A stretch of DNA of 26,147 nucleotides from a virus, in the IMG/VR virus record IMGVR_UViG_3300037234_001068, positions 1 to 26,147 of that record. One strand, given 5' to 3'. A program made the position numbers and the translations under genes. Below the pieces are notes generated by a model, which worked only from the letters and a program-made list of their open reading frames with translations, searched no databases and had not been told where the DNA came from. Positions 1,876-7,877 of the stretch are shown one piece after another (the first letter of the stretch is position 1; every line of letters begins with the position of its first letter).

Positions 1876-2892
1876 TTGAATGAGTTGGCTCTTTTCGCAG
1901 GCGCTGGTGGAGGAATACTCGGAGGGCAATTGCTCGGATGGCGAACCGTCTGTGCAGTTGAGCGTGATGCCTACGCCGCAACTATTCTGGCGCAACGACA
2001 AAATGAAGGACTTCTCGATCTTTTCCCAATTTGGTCTGACATCACAACTTTTGACGGAAGACCGTGGAAAGGAATTGTTGACGTCGTTTCTGGCGGCTTT
2101 CCATGCCAAGATATCTCCGTTGCTGGGAAAGGCGCCGGCATCAATGGAGAGCGCAGCGGACTCTGGGGGGAAATGGAAAGGATCATTGGTGAAGTACGAC
2201 CCCGCTTCGTCTTCGTGGAAAACTCACCAGCACTCACTCTTCGGGGGCTTGGAAGAGTTCTCGGAGACTTGGTCGCGATGGGGTACGATGCGGAATGGGG
2301 AGTGTTGGGCGCTGCCGACGTGGGAGCACCGCACAAACGGGAGAGGATCTGGATTATGGGCTACACCCGCAGCGACGGATGGGACACGCGGCGGGACAAT
2401 CACGGAGAACATGACAGGACAGTCTCTTCCGCAAATGGTCAAGACTCCGGAATATTGGCCGACACCGGTTGCATCGGAAGCACGTCAAGGTCTTCAGATA
2501 AGAAGGGAGGGGAAGAAGGGTTCTCAGCAAAGCTTATCAACGGCAGTGAAGATATGGCCGACGCCCCGTGCCTGCATGACGGGTGCCGTAACACCGGAGA
2601 GGGCAAAAGACAAATTCAACAATCTGGAATCTGTTCTTGCAAGGCAGATGTGGCCGACTCCCACAGCAAGAAGCCATCAGAATCCGGGCCTTCACGGCCA
2701 GGGTGGACAGAATCTTGTGACGGAAGTATATCGGGAGAAAGGACATATTCCCACGACTGGGCAGCTGAACCCGACGTGGGTAGAGTGGCTAATGGGGTGG
2801 CCTTCAGGGTGGACAGACTTAAAGGCCTCGGAAACGGGCAAGTGCCGGAATGCGCAGCTGAAGCATGGATAAGGCTTTTAGCGCGGGTTTAA
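1876..2892 (+). CDS. DNA (cytosine-5) methyltransferase
   Basis: This 338-residue enzyme would transfer methyl from AdoMet to C5 of cytosine in DNA. The motifs are in the usual order: motif I FAGAGGG (7-13), motif IV GGFPCQ (73-78) with catalytic Cys77, motif VI VENS (114-117), motif VIII HKRERIW (153-159) and motif X GLGNGQVP (317-324). The region between VIII and X (about 165-305), where the target recognition domain should be, is hydrophilic and repetitive (ADT, ADA, ADS at about 30-residue steps). The start is TTG 1876, five bases after AGGAGG. An ATG four bases on opens a different frame (1880-2872). No endonuclease partner is visible, so anti-restriction self-protection is the likely role for a phage-borne gene. 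The stop TAA lies just before core box ACCTAAC. Confidence 0.9.
   Translation: MNELALFAGAGGGILGGQLLGWRTVCAVERDAYAATILAQRQNEGLLDLFPIWSDITTFDGRPWKGIVDVVSGGFPCQDISVAGKGAGINGERSGLWGEMERIIGEVRPRFVFVENSPALTLRGLGRVLGDLVAMGYDAEWGVLGAADVGAPHKRERIWIMGYTRSDGWDTRRDNHGEHDRTVSSANGQDSGILADTGCIGSTSRSSDKKGGEEGFSAKLINGSEDMADAPCLHDGCRNTGEGKRQIQQSGICSCKADVADSHSKKPSESGPSRPGWTESCDGSISGERTYSHDWAAEPDVGRVANGVAFRVDRLKGLGNGQVPECAAEAWIRLLARV
1880..2872 (+). CDS. Overlapping-frame protein with WxTP repeats, inside the methyltransferase gene
   Basis: A 330-residue frame, +1 relative to the methyltransferase, runs almost its whole length with an ATG just after the same ribosome binding site. Its translation does not look random. 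W-x-T-P motifs occur at residues 160, 193, 226 and 258 (ATPAAT, PTPVAS, PTPRAC, PTPTAR), 33, 33 and 32 residues apart. It ends with LNPTWVEWLMGWPSGWTDLK. From memory, very similar WPTP-repeat and VEWLMGWP proteins are common in phages and are often annotated near or as cytosine methyltransferases. I cannot search to confirm this. The function is unknown. Either both frames are translated, or this one is a conserved shadow forced by the methyltransferase sequence. Confidence 0.6.
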   Translation: MSWLFSQALVEEYSEGNCSDGEPSVQLSVMPTPQLFWRNDKMKDFSIFSQFGLTSQLLTEDRGKELLTSFLAAFHAKISPLLGKAPASMESAADSGGKWKGSLVKYDPASSSWKTHQHSLFGGLEEFSETWSRWGTMRNGECWALPTWEHRTNGRGSGLWATPAATDGTRGGTITENMTGQSLPQMVKTPEYWPTPVASEARQGLQIRREGKKGSQQSLSTAVKIWPTPRACMTGAVTPERAKDKFNNLESVLARQMWPTPTARSHQNPGLHGQGGQNLVTEVYREKGHIPTTGQLNPTWVEWLMGWPSGWTDLKASETGKCRNAQLKHG

Positions 2893-2894
2893 AG

Positions 2895-3020
2895 ACCTAA
2901 CTTTGAGTTAACCGTGAACGGATAAAGGAGGCAACATGCTGAACGAAAAGAAGACAACCGAAGAGAACCAAGCCCCAAACGAAACAGCTGGTAGTGATAC
3001 GGTTGAACGCCGTGTTATAT
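2895..3020 (-). repeat. attC site 7 (carries SD and start codon)
   Basis: The left box is ACCTAAC (2895-2901) and the right box GTTATAT (3014-3020). The arms GAGTTAACCGTGA and TGATACGGTTGAAC pair with extra right-arm bases. AAAGGAGG (2924-2931) and the ATG at 2936 lie in the loop. It matches site 10 from the C of the left box to the end of the right box. Confidence 0.9.
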
Positions 3021-3283
3021 TTGAAGCTGTAGACCGCACAGATGAAGATATGTATTTCACAGTTGGGTTGTGGCCAACATTGGAAGAGGCGATTAATGCT
3101 TTCGATAATTCCAATGACCCTGATGAATTTTCCAATGATGTATGCCATGAAGAATATTGCATCATAGAAATCAGAGAAAGAAAAATAGGCTGGTCAGATA
3201 CAGGAATCGAAAGAGCAAAGCTTGAATGGGCGAGTAAGTATGATGAAGAAAATGATGAGTATATCTGGGCAAGAAAAATATAA
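2936..3283 (+). CDS. Cassette 7 protein, acidic, unknown function, leader type C
   Basis: This is a 115-residue acidic protein. Residues 1-28 (MLNEKKTTEENQAPNETAGS and onward to VERRVI) come from attC site 7 and nearly match the start of the cassette 10 protein. After that the two are unrelated. The body is rich in Asp, Glu and aromatic residues (DEDMYFTVGLWPTLEEAINA; DEENDEYIWARKI), with a mixed alpha/beta look and no metal or nucleotide motif that I recognise. Net negative charge is a common trait of small phage inhibitors and DNA mimics, but nothing here proves that role. AAAGGAGG is five bases before the ATG. The stop TAA is inside core box ATATAAC. Confidence 0.72.
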   Translation: MLNEKKTTEENQAPNETAGSDTVERRVIFEAVDRTDEDMYFTVGLWPTLEEAINAFDNSNDPDEFSNDVCHEEYCIIEIRERKIGWSDTGIERAKLEWASKYDEENDEYIWARKI

Positions 3284-3634: not shown

Positions 3635-3758
3635 CGATTGACATAACCGGCTGGACAGATAGAAACCGAGGAGGATCAAAATGACCGAGACAAACGAGAA
3701 GGCAAAAGGACAGGACGAGCGAAGCGTTGGACAGTCCGAGTTGATGGACGGGTTATGG
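3629..3758 (-). repeat. attC site 9 (carries SD and start codon)
   Basis: The left box is GGCTAAC (3629-3635) and the right box GTTATGG (3752-3758). The inner arms are as in site 2. A GAGGAGG motif and the ATG at 3681 lie in the loop. The first four bases of the left box differ from site 2 while everything from AAC inward matches, as expected if the crossover lies inside this box. Confidence 0.9.
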
Positions 3759-3986
3759 CAGAAGCCCGAAAAGGCAACAGTGGAAGGAACAACTTTTGCC
3801 TACCAAAACCCTGAACTTTTCAAAGAGCATTGTCAAAGCACCCCGCATGGTTGCCCGAACTGCAAAGGGATGGGAAAGGTTTCAAGGCCCCCACATATTG
3901 CCGGAGACCAGCAACAGTGGGTGAGTAACAGCGCGGGGCCTTATATGTGCCCAACTTGCAGTGGGGCCGATGTAATTTGGGACTGA
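3681..3986 (+). CDS. Cassette 9: paired CxxC zinc-finger-like protein, leader type B
   Basis: This 101-residue protein has leader MTETNEKAKGQDERSVGQSE, encoded in attC site 9. Its body carries two DnaJ-like knuckles, CPNCKGMGK (about 59-67) and CPTCSGAD (about 89-96), which could form one zinc-binding unit. It is the intact twin of the frameshifted copy at 540-844. The copies match across attC and body and diverge exactly at the next core box CCATAAC. CxxCxGxG pairs usually bind zinc and contact proteins or RNA, but the partner is unknown. The duplication suggests that it is useful or simply an abundant cassette. Confidence 0.78.
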   Translation: MTETNEKAKGQDERSVGQSELMDGLWQKPEKATVEGTTFAYQNPELFKEHCQSTPHGCPNCKGMGKVSRPPHIAGDQQQWVSNSAGPYMCPTCSGADVIWD

Positions 3987-3988
3987 TG

Positions 3989-4114
3989 CCATAACTTTGA
4001 GTTAACCGTGAACGGATAAAGGAGGCAACATGCCAAACGAAAAGAAGACAACCGAAGAGAACCAAGCCCCAGGCGAGACAACGGGTAGTGATACGGTTGA
4101 ACGCCGTGTTATAT
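3989..4114 (-). repeat. attC site 10 (carries SD and start codon)
   Basis: The left box is CCATAAC (3989-3995) and the right box GTTATAT (4108-4114). The interior is nearly identical to site 7, with AAAGGAGG (4018-4025) and the ATG at 4030 in the loop. Similarity to site 7 stops exactly at the end of the right box. Confidence 0.9.
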
Positions 4115-4347
4115 GGCGCGATTCTTCATTTGGAGAATATGCCGCCCTCGAAATTCCCGACGATGCCGATATTATTTTGGTGAGTATTGACTTAATGCAG
4201 CATAAACCTCAAACAATATTGTTGCCGCATCAGATGTATCGGAAGAGACTAAAGGCGATGCTGGAAGAAAATCCCGGCATAAGAAGCTTCACTATTCATC
4301 CCTTGCGTAGTAAGGAGAGCATAACCATTGATGCAAAAGCCATATAA
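4030..4347 (+). CDS. Cassette 10 protein, unknown function, leader type C
   Basis: This is a 105-residue protein. The first 28 residues (MPNEKKTTEENQAPGETTGS and onward to VERRVI) come from attC site 10 and almost match cassette 7. The body is distinct: an alpha/beta fold with strands LEIPDDADIILVSIDL and SFTIHPLRSKESITIDAK around a basic helix (MYRKRLKAMLEENP). No catalytic motif is recognised. AAAGGAGG lies five bases before the ATG, and the stop TAA is part of core box ATATAAC (4342-4348). It could be a small regulatory or inhibitor protein, which the sequence alone does not settle. Confidence 0.72.
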   Translation: MPNEKKTTEENQAPGETTGSDTVERRVIWRDSSFGEYAALEIPDDADIILVSIDLMQHKPQTILLPHQMYRKRLKAMLEENPGIRSFTIHPLRSKESITIDAKAI

Positions 4348-4440: not shown

Positions 4441-5130
4441 GTGGTTGAATTATTAAATATTGATTGCATGGAATATATGGCGAAACAACCGGACAAATCT
4501 TTTGACCTGGCCATTGTGGATCCACCTTATTTTGATGGGCCAAACAAATTGGGCTTTTACGGGGGGCGCTGCAGTAAAACTGGTGTCGATCGAGGAGGCT
4601 ATAAAAAGATTGGAGTTTGGAAGGTGCCTGACCAAGCCTATTTCGATGAATTATTCAGAGTGTCAAAAGGGCAAATTATATGGGGCTATAATTATTATCC
4701 TGTGGCGAATGCAGGCCCCGGCCGCATTATTTGGGATAAGTGCAACAGCGCTTCTACTTTCAGTGATTGTGAGATAGCTTATTGTTCCTTGATCGACTCT
4801 GTGAGGTTATTCCCTTATATGTGGAATGGGATGCTGCAGGGCTCGATCGGGAATGGCCGGATCATGGAAGGAAATAAAAAACTCAACGAGAAACGGATTC
4901 ATCCGACACAAAAGCCGGTTCATCTTTATAAGTGGCTATTAACTAAATTTGCAGAGAAGGGATCCAGAATCCTCGATACTCATCTTGGATCCGGCAGCAG
5001 CGCCATAGCTTCACATTATTTTGGATGCGACTTTGTGGGGTGTGAAATAGATCAGGAATATTTTGCGGCCGGAAAGAAAAGATTTGAAGAGGAAACGCGC
5101 CAGATAGCGTTTGACCTTGCGCGGGGTTAA
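4441..5130 (+). CDS. Beta-class DNA methyltransferase (N6-adenine or N4-cytosine)
   Basis: This 229-residue AdoMet-dependent DNA methyltransferase has catalytic motif IV DPPY at residues 27-30, ahead of the AdoMet-binding motif I (LDTHLGSGSS, about 178-187). That order defines the beta class. HPTQKP (154-159) is the conserved segment before motif I. DTHLGSGS in place of the usual FxGxG is frequent in phage enzymes. Whether adenine or cytosine is modified cannot be told from DPPY alone. The GTG start is preferred because GGAGG lies six bases upstream and MVELLNIDCMEYM matches the usual N-terminus of the family. No restriction endonuclease is adjacent, so it probably protects phage DNA from host restriction. 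Its 3' end (GCGCGGGGTTAAAGACCTAA) repeats that of the cytosine methyltransferase cassette. Confidence 0.92.
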   Translation: MVELLNIDCMEYMAKQPDKSFDLAIVDPPYFDGPNKLGFYGGRCSKTGVDRGGYKKIGVWKVPDQAYFDELFRVSKGQIIWGYNYYPVANAGPGRIIWDKCNSASTFSDCEIAYCSLIDSVRLFPYMWNGMLQGSIGNGRIMEGNKKLNEKRIHPTQKPVHLYKWLLTKFAEKGSRILDTHLGSGSSAIASHYFGCDFVGCEIDQEYFAAGKKRFEEETRQIAFDLARG

Positions 5131-6153: not shown

Positions 6154-7131
6154 ATGAAAAAAATTAAATCACTATTTTTGCGACGTGTATCTGATGCAGT
6201 TAAGGTGAAACATTATGCTGAATCTACCCGGAAAAACTATGTCGGGTGGGCGCGTAAGTTTATTTATTTTCATGGTTTTAACTCTGAAATGGGTATGCTG
6301 GGAAATCCTGAAAACCTCATTACTGATTATCTTACTTACCTTGCTATTTTTCGCAAAGTCTCTGCCTCTACTCAAAACCAGGCGCTGAATGCGCTGGTTT
6401 TTATGTATAAGAATGTTTTTATGATCGAGTTGGATGGCAAGATCGATGCGGTGAGGGCGAAGCGGGCCAAGAAAAAACCGCGCTATCTCTCCATTGATGA
6501 CACTCGCATGCTGCTCGATGCCCTCTTCGGCAATGGCGTAGGACTGATTGTTGAGCTTGCCTACGGTGCAGGACTTCGACCCGGTGAGGTGGTATCTCTT
6601 AGGATGGAGGACATTGATATCGACGGGCACCAGATTAATGTGAGGGACGCTAAAGGAAAGAAAGATCGCGTCACTATTCTTCCGGAAAATCTTATTTCGC
6701 CTCTACAGGTCCAGATGCGAAAGGTGGAGCGGACACACAGGTTCGACGCTTCAAAGGGCTTCGGCCACGTGGAGATCCCCTGGAACAAAGACCATACGAC
6801 AGACAGGCTCGGCCTCCAGTTCCTTTTCCCGTCAAGCAGAATCTCACAGCATCCGGCCACAGGCAAGAAAGGGCGTTTCCATATCTTTGATTCTACCATC
6901 CAGAAGGCGGTAAAAAAGGCAGCAGAGCGTGCCGGTATACTTCAAAGGGTTACGCCCCACATGTTGCGGCATTCCTTCGCTACGCACATGCTGGAAGGCG
7001 GAACGGATATCCGCACCGTCCAAGAACTTCTTGGACACAAAGATGTGCGAACTACGATGGGATATTGTCATGTGACAAAAATAGCGGCGGAGATAAAGAG
7101 TCCGCTCGATAATTTAAGGGGAATATCATGA
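6154..7131 (+). CDS. intI: Integron integrase (IntI-family tyrosine recombinase)
   Basis: This 325-residue recombinase (IntI1 is 337) would cut and join folded single-stranded attC with attI. The N-terminal core-binding domain has YAESTRKNYVGWARKFIYFH (21-40) and the integron signature SASTQNQALNAL (70-81). Catalytic residues are Arg142 (GLRPGE), a Lys near 169-170, His269 and Arg272 (PHMLRHSF), His295 (LLGHKD) and Tyr304. Between patches II and III lies the IntI-specific insertion (about 195-245, including GFGHVEIPW and FPSSRIS), which separates IntI from XerC/D. A strong AAAGGAGG precedes the ATG. The gene is co-oriented with all cassette genes and overlaps the next gene by ATGA, so it is probably co-translated with it. 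The protein appears intact. Confidence 0.96.
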   Translation: MKKIKSLFLRRVSDAVKVKHYAESTRKNYVGWARKFIYFHGFNSEMGMLGNPENLITDYLTYLAIFRKVSASTQNQALNALVFMYKNVFMIELDGKIDAVRAKRAKKKPRYLSIDDTRMLLDALFGNGVGLIVELAYGAGLRPGEVVSLRMEDIDIDGHQINVRDAKGKKDRVTILPENLISPLQVQMRKVERTHRFDASKGFGHVEIPWNKDHTTDRLGLQFLFPSSRISQHPATGKKGRFHIFDSTIQKAVKKAAERAGILQRVTPHMLRHSFATHMLEGGTDIRTVQELLGHKDVRTTMGYCHVTKIAAEIKSPLDNLRGIS

Positions 7132-7877
7132 TAAAAGCGATCTATGAACCGAAAGGTAAGGCGAAAGAATATTGCGATCTTGCAGTCAATATTTACCGGG
7201 GCTGCGGGCATGGTTGCTCATATTGTTATGCGCCCGGCATACTTCATATAGACAGACAAGAATTCACGGATTCAGCGACGGCCCGCAACGGCTTGATCGA
7301 TGTTCTAACGAAAGAAGCCCCAAAATATAACGGAAAAGAAATTTTTCTTTGTTTTTCTTGTGACCCATATGCCCCGATCGATGAAGAATTGCAGATTACC
7401 CGGCAGGCAATCAGAATCCTGAAAGAAAACAACATGACTGTTCGCATCCTGACAAAAGGCGGCTGGCGGGCCACAAGAGATTTCGACTTATTAGAAAAGG
7501 GCCGTGACTGGTTCGGCACTACGATGACATTCTGGTCTGAGGAAAAAAGCAGGACATGGGAACCATTTGCTGCGACACCGAAAGAAAGGTATGATGTCCT
7601 TAAAATTGCAAAACTGAAAGGTTTTAAGACCTGGGTCAGCCTTGAACCTGTAATCTACCCGGATCAGACCCTTGAAATAATATATAAAACCCATGAATTT
7701 GTCGATGAATATAGAATAGGCAAATGGAATTATGACAAAAGGGCCAAAACAATCAACTGGAAAGATTTTCTACACCAGGCAATCGGGCTTTTGAAGTCAT
7801 ATGGGAAGGAATATAAGATCAAAGAAGACTTGAAAATCTATCTGAAGCATAATCATAATATTAAATATAACCGATGA
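7128..7877 (+). CDS. Radical SAM protein, SplB / COG1533-like
   Basis: This 249-residue protein has the CxxxCxxC cluster of radical SAM enzymes at Cys26, Cys30 and Cys33 (RGCGHGCSYCYA), which would hold a [4Fe-4S] cluster for AdoMet cleavage. The surrounding NIYRGCGHGCSYCY pattern and FSCDPYAPIDEELQITR match the group that includes spore photoproduct lyase-like proteins and the uncharacterised Rv2578c type. The substrate cannot be told from the sequence. A nucleic acid lesion or base is plausible but inferred. The start ATG overlaps the intI stop (ATGA), and the end overlaps the next gene, so the three form one operon. The protein seems complete for a short family member. Confidence 0.88.
   Translation: MIKAIYEPKGKAKEYCDLAVNIYRGCGHGCSYCYAPGILHIDRQEFTDSATARNGLIDVLTKEAPKYNGKEIFLCFSCDPYAPIDEELQITRQAIRILKENNMTVRILTKGGWRATRDFDLLEKGRDWFGTTMTFWSEEKSRTWEPFAATPKERYDVLKIAKLKGFKTWVSLEPVIYPDQTLEIIYKTHEFVDEYRIGKWNYDKRAKTINWKDFLHQAIGLLKSYGKEYKIKEDLKIYLKHNHNIKYNR

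Follow-up and report, generated by a model that had tools for sequence, protein, structure and literature searches.

What is encoded by a stretch of viral DNA in which a cytosine methyltransferase gene is covered, over nearly its whole length, by a second long frame on the same strand? The question is raised by the IMG/VR record IMGVR_UViG_3300037234_001068, and the whole stretch of 26,147 nt that was analysed is referred to here as the window. Two same-strand frames overlap in it by about 990 nt. Frame 0 (1876-2892, +) starts with TTG, ends with the TAA at 2892 and encodes 338 amino acids, proposed here to be the alpha chain of a cytosine-C5 DNA methyltransferase. The +1 frame (1880-2872, +) starts with ATG, ends with the TAA at 2872 and encodes 330 amino acids, the proposed beta chain. 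The ATG lies 4 nt downstream of the TTG and has an in-frame TGA immediately 5' to it. A Shine-Dalgarno-like AGGAGGG (1865-1871, +), read from the sequence, precedes both starts, with a spacing of 4 nt to the TTG and 8 nt to the ATG.

An earlier note on this DNA had described the two frames at these positions, with one ribosome binding site for both starts, and the overlap is confirmed on both points. The end of the +1 protein had been given 16 residues short; the real end, past 'WTDL', is KASETGKCRNAQLKHG. The two products had also been regarded as independent, and here the evidence described below points elsewhere, to complementary halves of one enzyme, with sequences homologous to motif IX and to a recognition region lying in the +1 frame. 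The locus very probably encodes a two-subunit C5-methyltransferase in overlapping frames, with a catalytic alpha chain and a beta chain responsible for recognition and for motif IX.

Stop and start codons bear on whether the +1 frame is a gene at all or a by-product of composition and of the conservation of the methyltransferase. For this gene alone, a +1 frame free of stops has a probability of about 0.01 under synonymous codon shuffling. A first set of 87 sequences has 9 stops in the +1 frame, where shuffling of synonymous codons inside each gene leads one to expect 406, and the +2 frame of this set has no depletion, with 1486 stops against 1251 expected. The majority of these sequences had been picked by +1 similarity, and a second sample was therefore drawn by frame-0 alignment only. 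In this frame-0-first sample the +1 frame is stop-free in 58 of the 59 loci absent from the first set. Over codons 2-250 of the whole sample (n=76) a single internal +1 stop is observed and 317 are expected; the observed and expected numbers are 0 and 36 for codons 2-45, 0 and 66 for codons 45-95, 1 and 122 for codons 95-150, and 0 and 93 for codons 150-250. ATG is found as the +1 codon at offset 4 in 72 of the 76, and the second codon of frame 0 is AAT in 69 and AAC in none, the AAT:AAC counts elsewhere in the genes being 330:497. The depletion of stops together with the conservation of the ATG and the AAT indicates that the +1 start and the first 95 codons are maintained.

A by-product would be in keeping with the pairwise similarity test, in which the +1 frame lies above the shuffles but the +2 and antisense frames do so as well, making it weak evidence. 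It would also fit the substitution ratios of the +1 frame over beta residues 1-95 (NN/NS 0.74-0.81), which equal those of simulations with selection on frame 0 only. Such an origin is already refuted by the frame-0-first sample, the choice of which did not depend on the +1 frame and in which a single stop stands where 317 would be expected, and it is further contradicted by the lack of depletion in the +2 frame, by the retention of the +1 start codon and by the strong constraint on the +1 frame where frame 0 is relaxed. We give it practically no credence.

The frame under constraint changes along the pair. Substitutions in 255 pairs were classed by their effect in each frame, in in-phase nucleotide blocks, and were read against simulations, in which selection on frame 0 only gives a +1 NN/NS of about 0.6-0.9 and selection on the +1 frame only gives a frame-0 NN/SN of about 0.6-1.05. 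Over beta residues 1-45 the +1 NN/NS is 0.74 and the frame-0 NN/SN 0.15, and over residues 45-95 they are 0.81 and 0.16; by NN/NS, residues 1-95 are kept open with little amino-acid constraint. The corresponding values are 0.55 (0.52-0.59) and 0.25 for residues 95-150, 0.24 and 0.46 for the modules, 0.11 and 0.76 for the motif IX segment, and 0.63 and 0.18 after motif IX, in the region of motif X. Compared with the simulations, these rates place the constraint of frame 0 over motifs I-VIII and X, and that of the +1 frame over the modules and motif IX and, moderately, over residues 95-150. An earlier four-class estimate on the frame-0 alignment has the same direction. The SN/SS ratios, with few SS sites that are mostly first positions of Leu and Arg, were not relied on.

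Two other estimates have been set aside. A first NN/SN of 1.06, by which frame 0 appeared 'fully neutral' in the modules, was replaced by the 0.46 of the in-phase blocks, and the wording by 'relaxed'. For the catalytic region, a +1 NN/NS of 0.71 was rejected as a sign of constraint, since the frame-0-only simulation gives about 0.6-0.9.

The locus is thus a same-strand overlapping gene pair with both frames under protein-level selection. The earlier note had held that +1 stops or only neutral change in homologues would speak against the second frame, and overall neither is seen. The constraint it looked for by codon-position analysis is present in the modules, in motif IX and moderately in residues 95-150, with little of it in residues 1-95. 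Its view of a near-complete overlap conserved over the long term, with relatives in phages, is supported.

Frame 0 matches the Pfam family DNA_methylase (3.5e-33), covering only positions 4-169 of the 324 of the profile, and phrog_363 (1.6e-69). Its AF2 model matches M.HhaI in Foldseek (1e-12) over about 177 columns only. Residues 1-170 of alpha (1876-2385, +) comprise the catalytic domain with motifs I-VIII (GGFPCQD, ENS, GAPHKRERIW) and are modelled with AF2 block means mostly of 81-97. Residues 181-319 (2416-2832, +) are a low-confidence linker opposite the beta modules, with AF2 pLDDT below 50 throughout. The chain closes with motif X (RLKGLGNGQVP, near 2815-2847) and a C-terminal helix (together 2815-2889, +), with AF2 block means of 79-95 at the C-terminus. 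No motif IX is seen in the frame-0 sequence 1876-2892.

By its Pfam and Foldseek matches, frame 0 has the catalytic part of a cytosine-C5 methyltransferase, including motifs I-VIII, the PCQ and ENV/ENS signatures and the fold. It does not have the TRD, motif IX and motif X together of a complete one-chain enzyme, and we do not regard it as one, since it is without motif IX, is disordered in the AF2 model over residues 181-319 and is near neutral at the motif IX segment. The earlier note had placed all the catalytic motifs in this frame; motifs I-VIII and X are there, and the match to the Pfam profile ends about half way.

The +1 protein matches phrog_1008 (8e-44), which has the PHROGs label 'DNA methyltransferase'. 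Searches of the protein against Pfam and NCBIfam gave no match, and a profile search against the PDB gave the chance-level 3nng as the sole match, with no solved methyltransferase. The AF2 model of the +1 protein alone is poor (mean pLDDT 54, pTM 0.24), and a VIA-align structure search with the beta model gave no match at Z >=2.

Several parts can be recognised along the beta chain. Residues 95-150 (2162-2329, +; GGKWKGSLVKYDPASSSWKT...WGTMRNGECWALPT), a stretch with moderate +1 constraint, have G96, T115, G135 and G140 invariant in A2. They are followed by four modules delimited by alignment, of which module 1 (2357-2455, +; WATPAATDGTRGG...) was also delimited by the module survey. Module 2 (2456-2554, +; WPTPVASEARQGLQIRREGKKGSQQSLSTAVKI) has a relative (WPTPVHSEARQGLQIRREGKKGTQTSLSTAVLT) clustered in six other proteins in this survey. 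Module 3 (2555-2650, +; WPTPRACMTGAVTPERAKDKFNNLESVLARQM) and module 4 (2651-2764, +; WPTPTARSHQNPGLHGQGGQNLVTEVY...) lead to a motif IX-like segment, LNPTWVEWLMGWPSGWTDL (2765-2821, +), with the pattern LNPxWVEWLMGWP, which is aligned with LxPxFxEWMMGWPAGW of single-chain enzymes.

Beta proteins in general have 1-5 units that open with WPTP, with a median length of 36 amino acids, from about residue 155 to motif IX. The module survey comprised 425 units from 183 beta proteins and revealed 44 shared families, often at varying positions, and 142 distinct orders. Like the multispecific C5-methyltransferases, this locus therefore has a series of exchangeable units in the interval from motif VIII to motif IX. 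Shuffling of this kind is the behaviour that would be expected of exchangeable recognition units, and the modules may contact DNA and set the specificity.

Relatives in which the whole enzyme is one chain locate the beta chain within the canonical order of motifs. ShiLan gp70 (L101), L109 and others have motifs I-VIII, LPTP modules, LxPxFxEWMMGWP and motif X all in one frame. Among the 78 related phage loci of that search, 17 are single-chain and 51 are split with a +1 overlap, motif X being in the beta chain in 24 of the split loci and not in the other 27. The single-chain L110 and the split L125 have 94% identity in their alpha portions and 59% in their beta portions. A profile of the beta family aligns by hhalign with mainly single-chain C-terminal halves at a probability of 99.4 (E 5e-21), and phrog_1008 also matches the single-chain L109 over residues 185-377 (5.4e-58). 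On the basis of this homology the C-terminal half of beta is placed at the position of the TRD and motif IX. Compared by sequence with M.HhaI, the single-chain phage enzymes are aligned through motif VIII only and the step to motif IX is not significant, so that the equivalence to motif IX of M.HhaI rests on order and pattern. Both frames, then, are coding and conserved, with constraint falling on complementary segments, and the C-terminal half of beta is homologous to the VIII-X region of the single-chain relatives.

These observations also bear on the suggestion that alpha is by itself a complete enzyme with a recognition region in frame 0, and beta an accessory such as a regulator, an inhibitor or a counter-restriction factor. 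Frame 0 is indeed open across the modules and has some constraint there (NN/SN 0.46), but it has no motif IX, its model is of low confidence over residues 181-319 and it is near neutral (0.76) at the IX segment, and it is the C-terminal half of beta that has homology to the TRD-IX region of the single-chain enzymes. We consider such a division of roles improbable.

One polypeptide could also be made from the locus through two programmed frameshifts, reading frame 0 for motifs I-VIII, the +1 frame for the modules and motif IX and frame 0 again for motif X. The constrained segments alternate between the frames in exactly that order and single-chain relatives exist. A +1 frame that is stop-free over codons 2-95 (0 stops against about 102 expected) and a conserved ATG of beta would, however, be unneeded if the frame were entered by frameshift, and relatives such as gp39/gp40 of Arthrobacter phage Eesa look like two separate chains. 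Double frameshifting is accordingly thought unlikely.

The two-subunit enzyme is hence the reading we prefer, and we infer that its chains, with starts 4 nt apart that share one ribosome-binding site, would then assemble. Alpha is predicted to bind AdoMet and to flip and methylate the cytosine by means of motifs I-VIII and X. Beta would read the DNA target through its exchangeable module array, of four modules here, and supply motif IX, and the two chains together would rebuild the canonical order of I-VIII, TRD, IX and X. The protection of phage DNA from host restriction is the most likely role of such an enzyme.

Hundreds of phages and prophages have this arrangement, in a gene that is usually annotated as one complete enzyme. 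Searches by tblastn with the +1 protein matched 149 phage records, at least 595 IMG/VR stretches and 361 stretches in GTDB (one-per-species bacterial and archaeal genomes); like the match to phrog_1008, these bear out the mention in the earlier note of similar proteins in phage databases. The matches in the genome set include Pseudomonas, Acinetobacter, Burkholderia, Verrucomicrobia, Spirochaetes and MAGs that bear the labels of Patescibacteria and of an archaeon. In this set 73 of the 80 loci kept were scored as a methyltransferase frame overlapped in +1 by a frame with motif IX, the motif calls being regular expressions by which divergent forms are missed. Both frames have been annotated by depositors in some phages of Paenibacillus larvae and in Xanthomonas phage PhiXhv-28.

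Some individual loci differ from this general picture. In the prophage of E. coli PCP07014 (L094) stops only a few bases apart, at about 1863-1869, break both the alpha and the +1 frames, and the gene is annotated as a pseudogene with an internal stop; in E. coli PT62 alpha is annotated and uninterrupted. The loci of Cronobacter JC01 (L103, 805-1776) and Xanthomonas PhiXhv-28 (L104, 772-1698) belong to another methyltransferase group with a catalytic GEQVA and not ENS, and their +1 frames of 309-324 amino acids end in LNPxHSRWLMGYPxAW, which suggests that the overlap spans distant methyltransferase subfamilies. Mycobacterium phage Bipolar gp69 (L106, 1117-1731) is a +1 ORF with KYDPxxSSWKT-like and NPTWLAWLMGFP motifs that is annotated as a hypothetical protein, the frame-0 methyltransferase being without annotation. 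In Rhodococcus phage ReT1v-1 (L096) the match is in two annotated pieces and the motif scan listed no intact alpha frame; this is possibly a decayed or divergent copy.

On balance it is probable that a large share of the phage and prophage cytosine methyltransferases annotated as complete are alpha chains only, with the modular specificity half, beta, in the +1 frame, such that recombination of modules shifts specificity in one frame and touches only a tolerant linker in the other. If so, a near-complete overlap on one strand would be both old and widespread, with products that are halves of one enzyme and with selection alternating between the frames along the gene. It would explain the many phage methyltransferase genes without a recognisable target-recognition region, and cloning of the annotated ORF without the native second start could yield an inactive enzyme. 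It would also be predicted that fusion of the frames gives rise to the single-chain relatives, or that the split forms come from the opposite event. Such loci could serve as a natural test case for the evolution of overlapping frames, and for the use of modules to predict the methylation specificity of a phage.

The neighbourhood of the pair in the window has further features. Near-identical small ORFs (MT[DE]TNEKAKGQDERSVGQSELMDGLWQKPEKATVEG...) at 540-758 and 3681-3986 (+) represent an internal duplication in the early region, and the ORFs at 2936-3283 and 4030-4347 have an N-terminus in common (NEKKTTEENQAP...). A second DNA methyltransferase, this one of the N4/N6 class, is encoded a short distance downstream of the two frames, at 4441-5130 (+) (Pfam N6_N4_Mtase, 1.2e-13; phrog_23224, 9e-50). 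The genes of a tyrosine integrase (6154-7131, +) and, next after it, a radical SAM protein (7128-7877, +; Pfam 4.4e-14) share 4 nt.

In the open-access papers that our search covered, no earlier description of this wider class was found, and several known systems resemble the locus in part. The ShiLan domain is a hidden HNH endonuclease encoded by an out-of-frame ORF, a discrete mobile insertion in a mycobacteriophage methylase (PMC11855218), and the +1 ORF of the window is likewise out-of-frame inside a phage methylase gene. The +1 frame could by analogy be a selfish insertion, an idea we regard as exceedingly unlikely. Nothing significant, HNH included, was found when 28 +1 proteins were searched against Pfam. 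The +1 frame covers the whole gene with its catalytic motifs and is not a discrete insertion, and it is present in nearly all the sampled relatives and is not patchy. The ShiLan domain, in contrast, lies in another gene of ShiLan, encodes an endonuclease and had no homology to the +1 protein in any test made.

In ShiLan gp70 and enzymes of the L109 type, the LPTP modules and LxPxFxEWMMGWP, with motif X after them, are homologous to the C-terminal half of beta; these enzymes differ in carrying all the motifs in one polypeptide, whereas those of the window are split over two frames. The multispecific phage C5-methyltransferases of the SPR, phi3T and H2 type carry, after motif VIII and before motif IX, several recognition units that can be exchanged (cited in PMC8936443). 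The window locus shares with them the array of units at this position; they are single chains in one frame, unlike the modules of the window, which are in the overlapping +1 frame and have a putative DNA-binding role.

M.AquI is a split C5-methyltransferase of two chains divided after motif VIII, in which the small chain has the distal TRD and motif IX (PMC3404938). The smaller chain of the window similarly has the proposed recognition region and motif IX. Motif X is in the small chain of M.AquI and in alpha of the window, and an M.AquI-like location of motif X in beta is found in the relatives Eesa (L099) and Geodirt (L100).

In M.EcoHK31I the small-chain gene lies inside the large-chain gene in another frame. 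This enzyme (YGGCCR) is described as a natural two-polypeptide C5-methyltransferase, active as a pair, whose large chain has motifs I-VIII and X and whose small chain has motif IX (PMC3404938, PMC3439449), and its predicted TRD is assigned to the larger chain (PMC3404938). The window locus has the same distribution of motifs between its large and small chains. It differs in that its VIII-X region is constrained mainly in the +1 chain (0.24, against 0.46 for frame 0), so that the recognition region is not placed in the large chain, and in that its beta chain is 330 amino acids long, begins 4 nt after alpha and bears the module array. As the location of the TRD differs, and as the comparison is with the published description, the locus is likened to M.EcoHK31I and not filed as a member. 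The best reading is that the window locus would work like M.EcoHK31I, to which it is similar in layout.
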